Shown: in pieces, positions 19,548-27,150 of the stretch
Layout of the letters: every line of letters starts with the position of its first letter
Numbering within the stretch: position 1 is the first letter of the stretch
From: Ideonella aquatica
GTDB lineage: Bacteria > Pseudomonadota > Gammaproteobacteria > Burkholderiales > Burkholderiaceae_C
Length of the DNA stretch: 53,822 nt
Assembly: GCF_018069755.1 (NCBI RefSeq)
Contig: NZ_JAGQDE010000027.1
Coordinates: forward strand, 1 to 53,822
Reading direction: 5' to 3'
The notes under the pieces: model-generated
Databases searched by the model: none
The model's input: the letters and a program-made list of their open reading frames with translations, nothing else
What the model was told of the DNA's origin: nothing
Position numbers and translations under genes: made by a program

Positions 19548-20426
19548 ATGCGCTTTTCACACTGGTGGAAGGACGTGACCGAGGCTGGCCGACACAGCGC
19601 GGGCGTGTTCCTGCGCGACGTGGGCGGTGGTCTGCTCGAGGTCAGCCACAACATGCTGGCGTTGCTGGGCCTGCTGGTGCTGGCCGCCGTGGCCTTTGTG
19701 GCCGGTCGCGCCGACCTGCGCACCAGCTTCGAGCAGCAAGCCCTGGGCTGGCTGCAGGAGCGGCACGCCGAACGGCAAGGTCCCGAGCTGCTGGACACGC
19801 CGGCCGATCCGGCCCTGGTCCGCACGCTGGCCACCGAGCTGCACACACTCAGCCGGCCGCAAGCGGCCGTCACGCAATGGATCTCGCGCCGCTACCGTGT
19901 GGCGCCGGAGCCGGTGGCCCGCCTGGTCCAGGAAGCCTGGAGCGTGGGCCAACGCGCCGGCCTGGAGCCCACACTGCTGCTGGCCATCATGGCCATCGAA
20001 TCGGGCTTCAACCCGTTCGCCCAGAGCCCGGTGGGGGCCCAGGGCCTGATGCAGGTGATGACCCGCATCCACAATGACAAATACGAGTCCATGGGTGGGC
20101 GCCTGGCCGCCTTCGACCCGGTGAGCAACCTGCGCGTGGGTGTGGCCGTGCTGCGCGAATGCATCGCCCGTGCCGGCTCGCTGGAAGGCGGCCTGCGCTA
20201 TTACGTGGGCGCCGCCAACCTGGATGACGACGGCGGCTACGCCGGCAAGGTGCTGTCGGAGCACCGCCACCTGATCGCGGTGGCGGCCGGACAGAACGTG
20301 CCAGTGACGGCGCCGAACACCGTGATCGCGGTGCCCAGCACGGCCAGCGCGCCGGCTGCTGCCGAGTCCGCCAGCAGCCCGATGCCTGCCGAGCCAGTGC
20401 GCGAACAGGTGGCGCTGGCCGGCTGA
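19548..20426 (+). CDS. membrane-anchored lytic transglycosylase (SLT domain)
   Basis: A 292-residue protein. One membrane segment (about residues 36-53) is followed by a coiled or linker region and a Slt-type lysozyme-like domain (about 125-260). The catalytic Glu151 lies in IMAIESGFNP, then SPVGAQGLMQVM and the late AANLDDDGGYAGKV. Such enzymes cleave peptidoglycan glycan strands to anhydro ends during wall growth or secretion-system insertion. The last 40 residues are Ala/Ser/Pro-rich and probably disordered. The ATG at 19548 is chosen because AAGGA stands five bases before it; the ATG two codons earlier overlaps that site. The gene has its own promoter and long leader, and the glyA riboswitch begins about 40 bp after its stop. 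Confidence 0.88.
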   Translation: MRFSHWWKDVTEAGRHSAGVFLRDVGGGLLEVSHNMLALLGLLVLAAVAFVAGRADLRTSFEQQALGWLQERHAERQGPELLDTPADPALVRTLATELHTLSRPQAAVTQWISRRYRVAPEPVARLVQEAWSVGQRAGLEPTLLLAIMAIESGFNPFAQSPVGAQGLMQVMTRIHNDKYESMGGRLAAFDPVSNLRVGVAVLRECIARAGSLEGGLRYYVGAANLDDDGGYAGKVLSEHRHLIAVAAGQNVPVTAPNTVIAVPSTASAPAAAESASSPMPAEPVREQVALAG

Positions 20427-20464
20427 GCGGCTGAGCCGTTACACTGCAGGCTGACCGTCCAATA

Positions 20465-20597
20465 CTCACGCGCGACTGGCGACAGGGCGTGACGGCCACC
20501 CCCCCGCGGGTGGCGTCCGCTGCGAGGTGGATCACCACCGGGGAGCGCGGGGGCCGGCATGCGATGCCGCCCTGAACTGCCGTTCGCCTGGGCAACC
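20465..20597 (+). promoter_or_regulatory. ZTP (pfl motif) riboswitch upstream of glyA
   Basis: Three blocks match the ZTP/pfl aptamer in order: CGCGACTGGCG (20471-20481), GGTGGATCACCACC followed by GGGGAGCG (20526-20547), and CGCCTGGGCA (20585-20594). P1 can form between CGCGC (20469-20473) and GCGCG (20545-20549). P2 carries an added hairpin, GCCACCC (20495-20501) with GGGTGGC. The linker between the two subdomains also folds, GGCCGGCAT with ATGCCGCC (about 20552-20572). The class senses the purine intermediate ZTP/ZMP, which builds up when 10-formyl-THF is short, and raises one-carbon genes; glyA is a known target. A possible -10, TACACT at 20440-20445, would start the RNA just before the aptamer. 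Confidence 0.88.
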
Positions 20598-20600
20598 CGC

Positions 20601-20626
20601 CGATGGCCGCTGTGCAGCGTCCATCG
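20601..20626 (+). promoter_or_regulatory. hairpin after the ZTP aptamer (expression platform candidate)
   Basis: CGATGG-C-CGCTG pairs with CAGCG-T-CCATCG around a TG turn, an 11-bp stem with one mismatch. It directly follows the ligand-binding 3' domain and precedes the glyA ribosome site by about 25 bases. No T run follows, so control of translation or Rho access is more likely than intrinsic termination; this is inference. Confidence 0.45.
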
Positions 20627-20662
20627 CGCCGGGCCGCACCACGCCACACAAGGATGACATCC

Positions 20663-21913
20663 ATGTTCGACCGCACCCAATCGACGATCGACCGTGTCGA
20701 CCCGGAGCTGTTCGCCGCCATCGAGGCCGAGAACCGCCGCCAGGAAGAGCACATCGAGCTGATCGCCTCCGAGAACTACACCTCGCCGGCCGTGATGGCT
20801 GCGCAAGGCTCGCAGCTGACCAACAAGTACGCCGAAGGCTACCCTGGCAAGCGCTATTACGGCGGCTGCGAGAACGTCGACGTGGTGGAGCAACTGGCCA
20901 TCGACCGCGCCAAGCAGCTCTTCGGGGCCGAGTACGCCAACGTGCAGCCCAACAGCGGCTCGCAGGCCAACCAGGCGGTGTTCTTCGGCCTGCTGCAGCC
21001 CGGCGACACCATCATGGGCATGAGCCTGGCCGAAGGCGGCCACCTGACCCACGGCATGCCGCTGAACATGTCAGGCAAGTGGTTCAAGGTGGTGTCCTAT
21101 GGCCTGAACGCCCAGGAAGACATCGACTACGACGCGATGGAGCGCCTGGCCCAGGAGCACAAGCCCAAGCTGATCATCGCCGGCGCCTCGGCCTTCGCGC
21201 TGCGCATCGATTTCGAGCGATTCGCCCAGGTGGCCAAGGCTGTCGGCGCCTACTTCATGGTGGACATGGCGCACTACGCCGGCCTGGTGGCCGCGGGCGT
21301 CTACCCCAATCCGGTGCCGCACGCCGATGTGGTGACGTCCACCACCCACAAGAGCCTGCGCGGCCCGCGCGGCGGCATCATCCTGATGCGCGGTGAGGAG
21401 GTGGCCAAGAAGATCAACTCGGCGATCTTCCCGGGCATCCAGGGCGGCCCGCTGATGCACGTGATCGCCGGCAAGGCGGTGGCCTTCAAGGAGGCACTGA
21501 GCCCCGAGTTCAAGGCCTACCAGCAGCAGGTGGTGAAGAACGCCGCCGTGCTGGCCGAGACGCTGAAGGCGCGCGGCCTGCGCATCGTCAGCGGCCGCAC
21601 CGAGAGCCACGTGATGCTGGTGGACCTGCGTCCCAAGGGCCTGACCGGCAAGGAGGCCGAGGCCATCCTGGGCAGCGCCCACATGACCTGCAACAAGAAC
21701 GGCATCCCGAACGATCCGCAAAAGCCCATGGTCACCAGCGGCATCCGACTGGGCACCCCGGCGATGACCACGCGCGGCTTTGGCGAGGACGAAGCGCGTC
21801 AGACCGCCCACCTGATCGCCGACGTGCTGGACAACCCGCACGACGAGGCCACGATCGCCCGCGTGCGCGAGCAGGTGTCGGCACTGACCCGCCGCTTCCC
21901 GGTCTACCGCTGA
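20663..21913 (+). CDS. glyA: serine hydroxymethyltransferase
   Basis: GlyA interconverts serine and glycine with tetrahydrofolate and 5,10-methylene-THF, the main one-carbon source. The 416-residue PLP enzyme is full length: [43 protein letters not shown], and the Schiff-base Lys230 in [12 protein letters not shown] are all present, and the tail contains [12 protein letters not shown]. The ATG at 20663 gives the canonical MFDRTQ start, with AAGGA eight bases before it; an ATG three codons earlier overlaps the ribosome site. It is controlled by the ZTP riboswitch upstream. nrdR follows after 25 bp on the same strand, a pairing seen widely in proteobacteria. Confidence 0.98.
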
Positions 21914-21938
21914 CCAGCCGGCACAGGCGGAGCCAGCC

Positions 21939-22382
21939 ATGCGCTGCCCCTACTGCGGACATGACGAAACCCAGGTCGTCGAGACCCGGGAGTCCGACGA
22001 GGGCGACGTGGTGCGCCGGCGGCGCAAGTGCCACCGCTGCGAGAAGCGCTTCACCACCTACGAGCGGGCCGAAATCTCGCTGCCGGCGGTGGTCAAGCGC
22101 GGAGGCGCCCGCGTGGAGTTCGACCCCGAGAAACTGCGCGCCTCCATGACCCTGGCGCTGCGCAAGCGCCAGGTGAGCATTGAGCAGGTGGATGCTGCGC
22201 TGGAGCGCATCCAGGAAAAGCTGCTGGCCAGCGGCCTGCGCGAGGTGCCGTCCACTCGCGTGGGCGAGCTCGTCATGCGCGAGCTCAAGCGCCTGGACAA
22301 GGTGGCCTATGTGCGATTTGCGTCGGTCTACCGCAGCTTCGAAGACGTGGACGAGTTCAGCCGGCTGATCAAGGAAATCTGA
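21939..22382 (+). CDS. nrdR: transcriptional repressor NrdR
   Basis: NrdR represses ribonucleotide reductase genes in response to ATP/dATP. The 147-residue protein is complete. It has an N-terminal zinc ribbon with CPYCG at residues 3-7 and CHRCEKRF around residue 31, the DNA-binding segment VVRRRRKC between them, then the ATP-cone domain (about 48-138, starting [12 protein letters not shown]) which senses nucleotide balance. It follows glyA with a 25-bp gap, so it is probably in the same transcript and therefore partly under the ZTP riboswitch. A strong hairpin follows the stop at once. Confidence 0.97.
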
Positions 22383-22405
22383 GGCCGGGCGCCATGCGCC
22401 CGGCC
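22383..22405. terminator. bidirectional hairpin between nrdR and pilE
   Basis: GGCCGGGCGC (22383-22392) and GCGCCCGGCC (22396-22405) form a perfect 10-bp stem with a CAT loop. It fills the gap between the convergent stops of nrdR and pilE. T runs are weak on both sides, but the position and strength support termination or 3'-end protection for both genes. Confidence 0.65.
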
Positions 22406-22409
22406 GGTC

Positions 22410-22868
22410 TCATCGCCAGCAGGTGGGCACATCGCTGTACTGGCTGCCCTTTTGGCCAAGGTCGTTGAGTGTCAGATTGCCGCACTTGGCATCGGCCGAC
22501 ACCGGCTTGGCGGTCAAGGTGTAGCTGCGCTCATCGGCACCCACCACCACCTCGACCGAGTAGGTCTTGGCCCCACCGTCCCTGGGCAGGGTCTTGTAGG
22601 AGTCGGGCAGCTTCTTGTCGGCATCCTTGTAGGTGTTGAGCGCTGCGTAGTAGCGCTGCATCCACTGGGCTGCTTCCATCAGTCCGGCCTGCGCCCCAGC
22701 GCGGCGTCCGCGGGCCACCTGCTCGGTGTAGGCCGGGTAGGCGAAGGCCGCCAGGATGCCGAGAATGGCCACGACGATCATCACCTCGATCAGGGTGAAA
22801 CCCCTGACCGATTGGCGGGCTCGCCAGGCGGGACGGCCGCCAGGGCCGGACGAAGATTCGAGGGTCAT
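22410..22868 (-). CDS. pilE: type IV pilin PilE-like minor pilin
   Basis: A 152-residue type IV prepilin. The leader is long (23 residues) and ends in G; the mature protein begins [22 protein letters not shown] with Glu at +5, the signature for PilD cleavage and N-methylation. An N-terminal helix is followed by a globular part with two cysteines, C in AKCGNL and in the last three residues CWR, which would form the usual D-loop disulfide. It is the last gene of the minor pilin operon, 11 bp behind pilY1, as pilE is in Pseudomonas aeruginosa. It may cap or prime the pilus rather than be the major subunit; this rests on position. The ATG at 22868 is the one just before the leader. Confidence 0.9.
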
Positions 22869-22879
22869 GCTGCCGGTCC

Positions 22880-25800
22880 TTACTTGGGCTGGGGCGGGTT
22901 GACGATCTCGCGCCAGACGCGGTCGAGGACCTGCGGCGCCGTGGCGCCACAGGCCAGGCGGATCGCCTTGCCGCGCGGATCGGTGCTGAAGTCCCAGACG
23001 ATCTTGAAGCCGTCGATGCACTCGCTGTCCGGCGGCACAACCAGACCGTCAGTGCCGTCTGCCGACACATCGTAAGCACCAAAGTTGACGTCGTTCTCGT
23101 CGTACTTGCCGTCGCGGTTGGTGTCCACGATGGGATCCTTGGGCGGCAGGCCTTCGTGGGCACGGAAGATGAAGTTCATGCCCGAGCCACTCGTGATCTC
23201 GCATTCGGCCGCCTTGGGTGCCGGCACCATGCTCTGCACGAAGATGTAGTCATCAAAGATCGGCTGCACCGGGTAAATGACGCGCTGACCAGTCTGGGTC
23301 AGTTCGAGGTACCAGCCCTTCTTGACGTCCCAGTCCATCTCTTCACCTTCGATCGGGTAGACGGTGTAGGTCACATCACCCACCGTGATCTGCTTCGACG
23401 CACCCAGGGTGCGCTTGGACAGCACGCCTCGAATGTCGCCCGACCCGAAATAGGGGCTGGGGAGGCTGTCGGTCGCTGACTTGGCCGGCGTGGGATCCCA
23501 CACACCATAGATGGTTTGCTGACGGGACGAATCGGCATCCAACTCGTTCAGAAGGCGACCGGTACCGAAGACCACCAGCTGACCATTGCCAAACTTGAAT
23601 GGCATGTTCAGCGGCGCACTGGTGATGGCCTGAGGGGTCACGCCGTCAACTTCCACGGCCTGGAGCAGCGGCTTGTTCCCATAGCCCACCGTCCAGGTGG
23701 CGCTGTCGGTGGCTGAGCCGAACTCGACACGCCAGAGTTGCCCCTTCATGTCGCCCACATAAGCGGCGACCACGGCGCCCAGCTCGTCCTTGACCAGTGA
23801 CACACCCATGGCGCCATTGCCGCCAGTGCTGTCGAGCACCACCTTGTCCACGGCACCCGTGGACAGGTCGATGACCATCAACACCGCCTTGCCATCGGTA
23901 CTGTCAACGCCGTTGCCGACAAAGACCTTCCAGCCGTCAGAGGCCGAGCCCCCTGTGCCGCTCTGGATCTTGCCCACGGCCACGTCGCCCATCATGTAGC
24001 CAAAGTCGGTGTCGTCGGCGCTGGAGCGCTGCCACAGCACGGTGTCGGCATCGAGCGCGGTCGGGTTGGTCGTGGGCACATGCAGCGCGTAGATGGCTCG
24101 GCCACCCGCTCCCATGGTGCCCACCACCACATTGGCCCATTTGGCTGTGGCGTCGCGGCGGGTCTTGATGTAGGCATCCGCTTCGATGTGTGGCCCATCG
24201 ACCACGAACTGGTGGAAGTTCGATTCGGTGCCGTAGTCCTTGGCTGCGATCTTGGCCAGCTTGGGCAGACCCACCGAGGGCAGGAAGCCCATCAGTTCGT
24301 CACCGGTGTCGCTGTCAAAGGCGTGCAGCATGCCGCCGTTGCCCCCCAGGAACACCACGCCCTTGCTGCGGTTGCTCTTGGAAGCCAGGTAACTGGTGTA
24401 GCCGGCTTCGATGCCCGAGTAATCGAACTTGGCCAGATCCTTGACGTAAAGCGGCGGCGAATTGACGAAGTCCGGGTAGCGGTTGCCGCTGCGCGTGCGG
24501 TAGGGCTTGTCGGCCGCTTCATTGCTGGTATCGCCTCGCACCCAATCGGTCAGCGTGGCGACATCCACACTGGCATCGATCTTCATCGCGCTGATGTTCA
24601 AGGCGCCCATGCTGGCGTAGGTGAACGCGCTTGCCTTGCCCACATTGGGATTCCAGACCAGCAGGTTGCGCGCCGCCCAGTCGATCGGCTTGCCGGTGGC
24701 CGTTTTTGGCTGCGAGGCTTTCCAGACCGGAATCCCGATCTCGGCACCCACATCAGTCAGTTGATAGGCCTCGAGGTCACCGTACCAGGAGACGGCCTGG
24801 TACTTCGGCACGAACTTGTAGCTGCCCTGCACCTTCGTGGAGGAGTTCAGCGACACGCCGGCCTCCTTGGCGGTCTTGGAGATCGCCTTGCCGATCGCGT
24901 CCCGCATCGCCTTGGACAGGTCCTCGTAGCTCTTGGCCGAGTAGAAGTCACCGCCGGTGTTGACCGCGGCATGCCAGAGATCGTCCACTTTCTGGGCCGA
25001 ACCCGCCGCCGGATCGGGCCAGTTCAACTGGCCCGCCTTGATCTTGGCCAGCGTCGCCGCCTTGTTGGCCGATGTCGAGTCCAGGGTGCCCACCACGCCA
25101 AGACCCACCGTGTACTGCGTCAGATGCTGCCAGAAGGCAATGTCGCCCTGCACCGGAGGCACACGGTTGTCGATGCTGGTCTGCAGATCCTTCTTGAAGT
25201 ACGTCATCGCGACGTCGGCCAGCGTGTTGGAATACGCCGACGAACCGTCCTTGTACGGCGACGCGGCGGTGTACTGCGTGGGGGCGTACTTGTCAGGGTT
25301 GAAGCTGCCGTAGTCCGGGCCATCCGTACCGTCGGCGTCGCCGGCGGTGCCCGTGTAGGCATCGTTGTAGTAGCCGTCCGTCAGCAGGAAGTTCGCCGAG
25401 CGGCGGCAGGTCAGCAAGCCGGATCCAGCCACGCCAGGACGGGTCAGCCAGGGGCTGTTCTCGTTGTCCATCTGGAAATACGCGCCGATGTCGTCCAGCA
25501 CAAATCGCGTCGGTGTGCCTTCGAAGGACGAGATCTGGTGGATGCCCGACAGCACGGTCTTGAGCTGGTCGGCCGTCATGGGCTGGATACCCTGCTGCAC
25601 CCGGGTCTTGGTCGTGCTGTTGTTGGCGGCGTTGAACTGCGCCCAGCCCACGCGGATCTTGTCCTGGTAGTCAACCAGCGAGCGGCTGATGGCCGCCTTG
25701 CTCATGGTCTCGCGCAGGCGGTAGTAGGTGAACCAGTTGGCGAAATTTTGCTGTTCCTCGTCCTGCATGCAGCGTGAACCCGCGCAGTCCTTGCGGTTCG

Positions 25801-26557
25801 GGTGCTTGACGGCCGGTGCATAAGGCTCGACGGAATCGTTGGTGGTGTTGAGGTTGTAGAAGGTGTAAGAGGTCTTCAGGTTGGGGTCAACCGACGTGTT
25901 CTTCAGCCGGTAATAAATGGCCGGATTGAAGCTGCGTGAAGTGGGATCGGCGTCACAGACCTTGTAGCCGGTGCACCAGTTCTGCTTGCTTGAGATCGTC
26001 TTGCTCAGGTTCAGAACACTGGACGAATCAAAGACGGGATCGAGGCGGGCGTTGTTGTAGGTCGCCTTCGCCATGTCGTTGGGCAGCGAGTCGACGTTCT
26101 TCCAGGGCCTGTACCAAATATCGGGGTTGTAGTAGAGCGCGTTGATGTCCGGCGAGCGGAACTGCATCTCGAACACCGAGCCCTTGCTCGGCCCCAGCGC
26201 CGTGACAACGCCGCCCACGATGTAGGAGAAGGTGTACCACTTTCCGTCGGTCCACTGACGGTAGGGCGAGCGCCGCTTGTCGTTCGGGTAGCCCACCGGC
26301 CAGAAACGCTGGTTCACGTCGCTGGGCGAGGTGGCAATGATGACGCTCTTGCCATTGATCGTGAAGCTCTCCTCGGGGATGAAGTCGAACAGCATCGACC
26401 CCGAATCATCGATCGTGAGCATCAGGTTGGGCAGCGGCGGTGCAGCGCTGCGGGCCGTCAGCGGCGACTGCGCAGGCTCTGCCCAGGCGTGCGTGGCGGC
26501 GGCCAACAGCGTGGCACCGGCCAGGGTCCAGGCCTGAAGGGGATGGGATCGGTTCAT
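22880..26557 (-). CDS. pilY1: type IV pilus tip adhesin/assembly protein PilY1
   Basis: A 1225-residue secreted protein with signal peptide (hydrophobic segment ending AWA near residue 26). The N-terminal part has a von Willebrand A-like start with the metal-site motif LTIDDSGSM, a long variable middle, and a C-terminal PilC-type beta-propeller (about 750-1150; segments [20 protein letters not shown] and [12 protein letters not shown]-like, read [16 protein letters not shown]). A calcium-binding EF-hand-like loop, [12 protein letters not shown], lies near the C-terminus. PilY1 sits at the pilus tip and promotes extension and adhesion. The ATG at 26557 (MNRSHPLQ) precedes the signal peptide. 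It is in the minor pilin operon between pilX and pilE, and its G+C looks slightly lower than its neighbours. Confidence 0.93.
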
Positions 26558-26589
26558 GCGGGCCTCTCTGGATGCGGGCATGCTGCGCC

Positions 26590-27150
26590 TCACTTGATGC
26601 GCAGGGTGGACTGCAGCCAGACCACGGAGCCGGCGGTCTGACGGCCGGTGTCGGTCTGGTCGTAATCGGGGCTGAAGCCTCGTGCAGTGACGATGATGGA
26701 CTTGGTGCCCGGAACCGCGGTGCTCCACTCGGCCAGGCATTGCGGCGTGGTTGTCGGTGTGAAGCTGCTGTCGGCCGAGGCCAGCACGCTGCCAGGGACC
26801 TTGACGGCCTCGACCGCCGCACCGCCCTGCCACGTGGCAAAGGTCTGCCAGTAGGGATCGCCCGGCGATGCTGCGTGGATGGTGAATCCGCCCAGCCAGT
26901 CCTTGGAGTCGCGCTCGACCTGGGTTTCGCAGAAACGCAGCGCCAGTTGGGCCGCTTGCTGGGCCAGCGTATGCAGGCGAGCGTTGTTCGAGACCACGTC
27001 GGAGGTGAGCGAGCTGCGCATCACGGCGGCCGACGCCAGGCCGATGACGACCAGCATCACCAGGGCAATGATCAGCGTCACGCCGCGCTGGCGGGATGCA
27101 AGGTGCAAGGAAGAGGCGCCGCGGCGGCGCGCAAACTGGGTGGGCTTCAC
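26590..27150 (-). CDS. pilX: minor pilin PilX
   Basis: A 186-residue PilX-like minor pilin. The leader ends RQRG (residue 23) and the mature start is VTLIIALVMLVVIGLASA. The residue at +5 is Ile, not Glu, which is typical of PilX/GspK-type tip pilins. Two Cys (FCETQ, QCLAEW) could bond in the globular part. Its stop is 32 bp before pilY1, and its start overlaps the pilW stop by four bases (ATGA), showing translational coupling. The set PilV-PilW-PilX with PilY1 primes type IV pilus assembly. Confidence 0.87.
   Translation of the reverse strand: MKPTQFARRRGASSLHLASRQRGVTLIIALVMLVVIGLASAAVMRSSLTSDVVSNNARLHTLAQQAAQLALRFCETQVERDSKDWLGGFTIHAASPGDPYWQTFATWQGGAAVEAVKVPGSVLASADSSFTPTTTPQCLAEWSTAVPGTKSIIVTARGFSPDYDQTDTGRQTAGSVVWLQSTLRIK

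Follow-up and report, generated by a model that had tools for sequence, protein, structure and literature searches.

The ligand and the ON logic of the ZTP riboswitch class are known, and so are members of the class that act on translation. The gene glyA is among those found most often behind pfl RNAs (Weinberg and colleagues, PMC2864571), and pfl RNAs upstream of glyA have already been published for Cupriavidus (PMC10882993) and for Herbaspirillum, where a ZMP/ZTP riboswitch before glyA of H. seropedicae was reported as an RF01750 hit (PMC7011215). Trimethoprim raised the expression of a pfl-glyA-lacZ operon fusion in Cupriavidus metallidurans; the reporters of that study in general carried a promoter-less lacZ 3′ of the target, inserted by means of a 300-400 bp fragment from the 3′ end of the gene, and the authors describe a control that concerns glyA solely, with 'nrdR' absent from the main text (PMC10882993). 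In terminator-type ZTP switches, strand exchange at P3 is the established mechanism (PMC10085676, PMC10907184), and a pseudoknot between J1/2 and L3 is an established feature of the class (PMC10907184).

The locus described here lies in a stretch of 53,822 nucleotides from Ideonella aquatica (contig NZ_JAGQDE010000027.1), the whole of which was analysed and is called the window. An initial annotation had placed a pfl/ZTP aptamer in front of glyA and had proposed that nrdR also falls under its control. In an Rfam scan of the whole window, it was found that RF01750 (ZMP-ZTP/pfl) was the sole family above its gathering score, matching over model positions 1-86 of 86 with 44.6 bits against a gathering score of 39 (E = 0.00041, whole window against all families), and the class assignment is thereby upheld. 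The organism's own genome (5.17 Mb scanned) contains one RF01750 match above the cut-off (E = 9.4e-6), the runner-up having 22.7 bits. Read from the sequence, the three conserved blocks stand where the annotation had put them (CGCGACTGGCG at 20471-20481, GGTGGATCACCACCGGGGAGCG at 20526-20547 and CGCCTGGGCA at 20585-20594), and the proposed P1 strands CGCGC (20469-20473) and GCGCG (20545-20549) pair perfectly. The P1-J1/2-P2 domain of RF01750 is represented by the conserved GACUGGCG and GGUGG..CCACCGGGGAGCG, P3 is represented by CGCCUGGGC, and the purine or one-carbon gene that belongs downstream is glyA. The complementary strands of the predicted L3-J1/2 pseudoknot, CGCC (20585-20588) and GGCG (20478-20481), are both present. 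The stem noted at 20601-20626 (CGATGG..CCATCG) also exists, and now appears as the apical part of a longer hairpin predicted for 20596-20633; the T run said to be lacking after it is indeed absent from the sequence, and a terminator scan of 20300-22600 gave no terminator. We regard it as practically certain that the aptamer is real, and the locus represents an unremarkable, well-preserved ZTP riboswitch of which the class and the target gene are both already known. The coordinates are collected in Table 1.

Table 1. Positions of the leader elements and genes in the window, with the basis of each assignment.
Feature	Position	Strand	Basis
TACACT, likely -10 element; transcription start inferred near 20450	20438..20443	+	position-specific conservation
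ZMP-ZTP (pfl) riboswitch aptamer	20462..20600	+	RF01750, 44.6 bits
P1 5′ strand, partner 20545-20549	20469..20473	+	sequence, Rfam structure line
Conserved block 1 (CGCGACTGGCG), including pseudoknot partner GGCG 20478-20481	20471..20481	+	sequence, Rfam
39-nt insert absent from the family model; can fold into a hairpin	20487..20525	+	Rfam alignment; fold of 20450-20690
Conserved block 2: P2 hairpin GGTGG..CCACC, then P1 3′ strand	20526..20549	+	sequence, Rfam
Variable linker, predicted hairpin	20550..20576	+	fold
P3 hairpin with L3 CGCC; UGCC 20578-20581 / GGCA 20591-20594	20578..20594	+	Rfam; constrained in fold
Post-aptamer hairpin, including stem 20601-20626	20596..20633	+	folds; genus base-pair conservation
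Strand predicted to compete for pairing with the P3 3′ strand; genus-conserved GCC at 20643-20645	20636..20645	+	predicted apo fold
Shine-Dalgarno AAGGA, beside/within small hairpin GGAU-GAC-AUCC	20650..20654	+	sequence, folds
glyA, serine hydroxymethyltransferase, 416 aa	20663..21913	+	Pfam SHMT; NCBIfam PRK00011.1
nrdR, 147 aa; by its family name, a repressor of the genes for ribonucleotide reductase	21939..22382	+	Pfam Zn_ribbon_NrdR + ATP-cone; TIGR00244

The occurrence of the aptamer was evaluated in 200 sampled genomes from the family, of which 158 matched RF01750 at E ≤ 0.001 and 131 had a match above the cut-off. The 158 do not include genome G044, which has a weak match of 26.4 bits before glyA (L272), where the aptamer looks full and has long loops; the Rfam cut-off may therefore miss some real aptamers. 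From the 158 matching genomes, 130 loci were taken (30 + 100), 129 of them with glyA, and in 130 of 131 loci, the window included, glyA is the next gene downstream, the exception (L068) stopping at a contig end; L152 and L153 are also without glyA. Genome G055 has two RF01750 matches above the cut-off (contigs C43 and C59), the first of them near a contig end (L068); this may be one site assembled twice. Within the genus, all 16 genomes matched at E ≤ 0.05, 14 of them above the cut-off, and the aptamer motif precedes glyA in 15 of the 16. One genus member (G211) has its aptamer at 35.0 bits, under the cut-off, and the exception (G212) has a 28.1-bit match away from glyA, with glyA elsewhere on the same contig and nrdR behind it. 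The glyA start of this exception (L271) comes almost directly after the upstream gene. Among the best 80 named GlyA loci, a set that may lack the records nearest to the window, the closest were 87-89% identical (an unclassified Burkholderiales MAG, Aquabacterium, Rubrivivax and Piscinibacter).

For the comparison of leaders, the 129 family-sample loci were combined with 15 genus loci and 61 named loci with the aptamer; since L019 and L060 are in both the family and the genus sets, the 205 entries represent 203 loci. Several named loci apparently duplicate family-sample loci (e.g., L159 and L079), and the sets are therefore not independent. A further 19 named GlyA loci form the group without an aptamer, as defined by a motif rule; this group includes the aptamer-like L213 and L223, which keep P3 remnants (CGCCGGGGCAGCC and GAGCGCCTGGGCAGCC) and by eye resemble diverged aptamers. 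The starts of GlyA and the gaps to nrdR were taken from alignment and not from annotation.

In many relatives, the leader listing showed AAGGACUGCC repeated before the glyA start. The CUGCC of this motif is complementary to GGCAG, the P3 3′ strand, and its AAGG is complementary to the CCUU that often follows the P3 strand; sequestration of the start site is predicted from this complementarity. In counts from which L142 was excluded as a repeat of L060, GGACTGCC stood within the 28 nt that precede glyA in 70 of the 129 leaders from the family sample and in 22 of the 61 named leaders with an aptamer; it was found there in none of the 19 named GlyA loci without an aptamer by the motif rule. We folded 173 of the 203 leaders (those longer than 130 nt, or with the P3 GCC/GGC not at the expected place, were skipped) with secondary-structure models that disregard the pseudoknot and the ligand, the ligand-free RNA being folded without the P3 5′ strand, and compared the predicted unpairing of the Shine-Dalgarno (SD)-to-AUG region when P3 forms. 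The mean gain was +0.143 for the 107 leaders with CUGCC (44 above 0.15) and -0.001 for 51 leaders without CUGCC outside the genus (2 above 0.15). When the segment that starts right behind the P3 GGC and ends 16 nt short of the AUG was shuffled, the mean of the CUGCC class was +0.022 with 1 of 107 loci above 0.15, these values being means of 8 shuffles per locus and hence not like for like with the real leaders. Per position (155 of the 203 leaders, those under 50 nt being skipped in addition), the CUGCC class opened at -10 to -1 by 0.07-0.41 when P3 formed, and P3 formation also closed the early coding bases +3 to +7 by 0.17-0.24.

At 188 loci, GGCAG and CUGCC occurred together in 111, GGCAG alone in 46, CUGCC alone in 3 and neither in 28 (Fisher p = 1.8e-10). 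With correction for the tree (198 of 203 rows), the association was not significant (median p = 0.375): the supported branches gave 11 independent pairs, of which about 4 went the same way, 1 went the opposite way and 6 had no difference. In our view, the P3 side varies little because of the aptamer's own needs. For the 128 loci in the duplex-energy comparison (L038 and L134 were excluded), all 200 shuffles that swapped the partners gave a poorer duplex than that of the P3 strand with its own ribosome site, which had a mean energy of -12.8 as against -12.5 for coding stretches of the same loci. With so small a margin over coding stretches of 28 nt, duplex energy is a poor discriminator, and we do not build the case on it. 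From the fold models, translational control in the relatives is likely, and we read it as a translational ON switch that would exploit the strand exchange at P3 by which terminator-type ZTP switches work. Among the literature matches listed, we found no recognisable treatment of the AAGGACUGCC ribosome-site motif.

The window and its genus present another picture. CUGCC is present in the final 28 nt before glyA in none of the 15 genus leaders, the window included, and the arrangement for sequestration of the ribosome site, with AAGGACUGCC and CUGCC beside the SD, was not found in the window or the genus. The genus ribosome site is GAAGGAA in 12 of 15 leaders and CAAGGAUGACAUCC in the window, L148 and L149. 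Between -30 and -12, GCC is present in 15/15 genus leaders as against 53/188 of the others, and GCCC in 12/15 as against 16/188, the window itself having GCC only. In the predicted apo fold of the window, GC (20636-20637) and CCA (20639-20641) pair with UGG-GC (20589-20593) and thereby enclose the post-aptamer hairpin. The base of this hairpin (20596-20599 with 20630-20633) was predicted by RNAalifold from the 15 genus sequences, with both sides changed at 2 of the 4 pairs and each pair broken in 0-2 of the 15 sequences. RNAalifold gave only P3 and the hairpin base from the genus alignment (A1) and did not find the competitor pairing of P3; in this alignment, the GCC strands of the window's subclade and of the rest are offset by a few columns.

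The predicted unpairing from the SD to the AUG did not change on P3 formation, either in the window (0.37 against 0.36 unpaired) or in the genus (mean -0.010 for 15 leaders, none above 0.15). The small hairpin at the window's SD (20652-20662) was present in 5 of 5 folds that contain the site and is independent of the aptamer. Per position, the genus leaders opened upstream of the SD, at -23 to -20 (0.25-0.40), where their predicted P3 competitor lies, when P3 formed, and P3 formation also closed coding bases +10 to +13 by 0.20-0.38. The predicted ensemble energies of the window leader were -34.5 kcal/mol ligand-free and -34.3 kcal/mol with P3 formed, the pseudoknot and the ligand being uncounted, and such near-equal values suit a switch that is tipped by the ligand. 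The models point to the strand 3′ of the post-aptamer hairpin as the more likely switching element, rather than the stem 20601-20626. In the terminator scan, no intrinsic terminator was found, as compared to 0.9 expected in shuffles, and a T-run hairpin overlapping P3, as in ZTP switches of the intrinsic-terminator type, was not found in the window. The signal must therefore be passed on by translation or through Rho, and we lean slightly toward an action mainly on translation in the window.

The sequence TAnANT occurs 10-14 nt before the conserved start of the aptamer in 155 of the 203 leaders with an aptamer; a control interval 26-34 nt upstream contains it in 4 of 203. The window, L148 and L149, which have it at 26-27 nt, are themselves among these 4 control hits. 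A generic scan found no consensus sigma-70 promoter, and so the assignment of a -10 element is based on position-specific conservation. In most relatives the RNA would start at about the first base of P1, and the -10-like element at 26-27 nt suggests that the leader of the window and the two nearest genus members is about 15 bases longer at the 5′ end. The region from TACACT to P1 in the window (20444-20468) has about 15 extra bases compared to most relatives, a trait common to the window, L148 and L149. Upstream of the aptamer, a frame with an SLT transglycosylase domain ends at 20426.

The Pfam and NCBIfam family models bear out the identities of glyA and nrdR given in the initial annotation, and the 25-bp gap between them. 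Just past nrdR, on the minus strand (22410-26833), there are frames that we take to resemble a type IV prepilin and a PilY1-like protein. The choice of glyA as target stands, with the class score above gathering, and it fits the pfl-glyA-lacZ result from C. metallidurans (PMC10882993); control of glyA by the aptamer is very likely. The two genes are probably co-transcribed, and riboswitch control of nrdR is plausible. The chances of a measurable effect on nrdR appear to be even, and because nrdR has its own start site, a purely translational switch would have only an indirect effect on it. In the C. metallidurans reporters, lacZ was 3′ of the target genes, so that the gene after glyA seems to receive the signal there; we regard this as indirect support for control of nrdR.

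Gene order was evaluated with gaps that may err by about a base. Of the 96 family-sample loci that extend far enough, 90 have nrdR within 130 nt of glyA (it is farther away in 3 and was not found in 3), and in five named Cupriavidus loci nrdR is about 71-166 nt past glyA. The same spacing (≤130 nt) was found in 15 of the 19 named GlyA loci without an aptamer by the motif rule, and the genus member that lacks an aptamer before glyA (G212) yet has nrdR adjacent. We considered and rejected the idea that the riboswitch is the cause of the glyA-nrdR pairing, because the 15 of 19 loci indicate that the gene pair is independent of the riboswitch. Among the literature matches listed, there was no recognisable treatment of nrdR under a ZTP riboswitch.

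Taken together, the best explanation, to which we give a probability of about 0.72, is a pfl riboswitch leader of a glyA-nrdR mRNA in which P3 strand exchange frees the glyA start region. In this model, a pfl-class ZMP/ZTP riboswitch would form the 5′ leader of the glyA-nrdR mRNA, and a shortage of 10-formyl-THF would lead to accumulation of ZMP/ZTP, binding to the aptamer and locking of P3 and the pseudoknot. Without ligand, a downstream strand would pair with the P3 3′ strand. The invading strand in many relatives would be the ribosome site itself (AAGGACUGCC), so that the ligand releases the glyA start; the invader in the window's genus would lie just upstream of the SD, and the ligand would free a landing zone for the ribosome and not the site itself. 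Release of the competitor strand would allow glyA translation to initiate more easily, and GlyA would refill the one-carbon folates. Expression of nrdR, if co-transcribed, would follow only partly, through polarity, message stability or a Rho route. The promoter, the mode of switching in the genus and the effect on nrdR are parts of the model that we infer. A more far-reaching version is speculative and on balance improbable: the ribosome site would invade P3 in the family, an invader about 15 nt upstream would gate the landing zone in the genus, and the folate alarm would raise NrdR through the shared mRNA, lowering ribonucleotide reductase at times when dTMP synthesis has too few one-carbon units.

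The repeated AAGGACUGCC of the relatives might be merely a favoured start context that has no partner in P3. In 100 family genomes, we counted AAGGACTGCCATG at 48 places, 32 of which are away from glyA (a reversed control gave 3), and this count, along with the loss of significance of the GGCAG-CUGCC association after tree correction, is what such a context would give. However, the other 16 of the 48 places fall at one gene (14 adjoin RF01750 places, and two, in G050 and G044, were assigned by a GlyA-like start, G044 having its 26.4-bit match there), GGACTGCC is missing from all 19 glyA starts without a detected aptamer, and the predicted coupling of the fold to the start site drops away on shuffling. 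We consider a context without a P3 partner to be unlikely, although it keeps some weight.

For the window, the aptamer could act by way of Rho, such that the ligand-free leader exposes the C-rich stretch 20634-20662 and transcription ends, whereas with ligand it is read into glyA and nrdR. No intrinsic terminator was found, the stretch has 13 C, 5 G, 9 A and 2 T, and the genus is without predicted coupling to the start site, all of which would suit Rho; moreover, a glyA-lacZ operon fusion responded in C. metallidurans, so that a signal can reach a downstream gene (PMC10882993), and loci of the ZMP-ZTP family are reported to undergo transcription termination (PMC12121620). The stretch is short, however, and polarity after a translational block would yield the same reporter result, and we hold a Rho route to be doubtful. 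An intrinsic terminator, as in Clostridium and Fusobacterium, is the best-studied mode of the class, and a stable hairpin does stand 3′ of the aptamer, but with no T run behind this hairpin and the empty scan (0 terminators, 0.9 expected in shuffles) that mode is exceedingly improbable here. It is also very improbable that the aptamer is a relic and that control of glyA has been lost in this genus. The modest score of the window, the 35.0-bit aptamer of G211 below the cut-off, the genus member with only a 28.1-bit match that is not before glyA, and the lack of the relatives' ribosome-site complement would fit a relic; against it, the P3 block (aligned from P3 on) and the GCC competitor are each present in 15 of 15 genus leaders, and the hairpin base has changes on both sides at 2 of its 4 pairs.

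Several loci have leaders of other kinds. In Massilia, Duganella and Collimonas (L174, L178, L183, L184 and L186), the distance from P3 to glyA is 100-114 nt with a second strand GGCUGCC, and in Paraburkholderia (L169, L176 and L177) it is 174-180 nt with a second strand GGCUGUCC; each of these strands has the potential to base-pair with the P3 3′ strand at some distance from the ribosome site, which looks like another mode of output. Cupriavidus loci L161, L163, L167, L168 and L172 share GUGCGCCCUG shortly after P3. A subset (L041, L052, L055, L065, L070, L074, L084, L089 and L090) has CAACCCUAGA or similar before glyA, with no clear SD by eye.

What is new in this work is the comparative view of the expression platform, the mode of which seems to differ between the genus and its relatives. 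Under our preferred reading of P3 strand exchange, the leaders offer a natural series in which one aptamer may keep this exchange while the output moves: to a terminator (known, in Clostridium), to the ribosome site (many family members) or to a strand upstream of it (the genus), with the longer leaders of Cupriavidus, Massilia-type and Paraburkholderia loci as further members. It also makes testable the question of whether NrdR is raised together with GlyA under folate stress.

Compared to the RF01750 class, the window shares the three conserved blocks, P1, P2, P3 and a one-carbon gene downstream, and differs in the 39-nt insert in the first domain and in having no terminator. The C. metallidurans pfl-glyA system (PMC10882993) is of the same class and precedes the same gene, whereas the distance from P3 to glyA is 178-205 nt in the five named Cupriavidus loci and about 76-78 nt in the window. 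H. seropedicae resembles the window in having RF01750 upstream of glyA (PMC7011215). The Pectobacterium ZTP switch, which was followed with a translational lacZ fusion, is from a Gram-negative bacterium, as is the window, and its reporter needs ligand (PMC10117056). In the Clostridium beijerinckii pfl switch (PMC10085676), the P3 3′ strand is invaded by a downstream strand and the ligand blocks the exchange, and the same is predicted for the window; the C. beijerinckii invader closes an intrinsic terminator, whereas the predicted invader here is, for the relatives, the ribosome site and, for the genus, a strand immediately 5′ of it.
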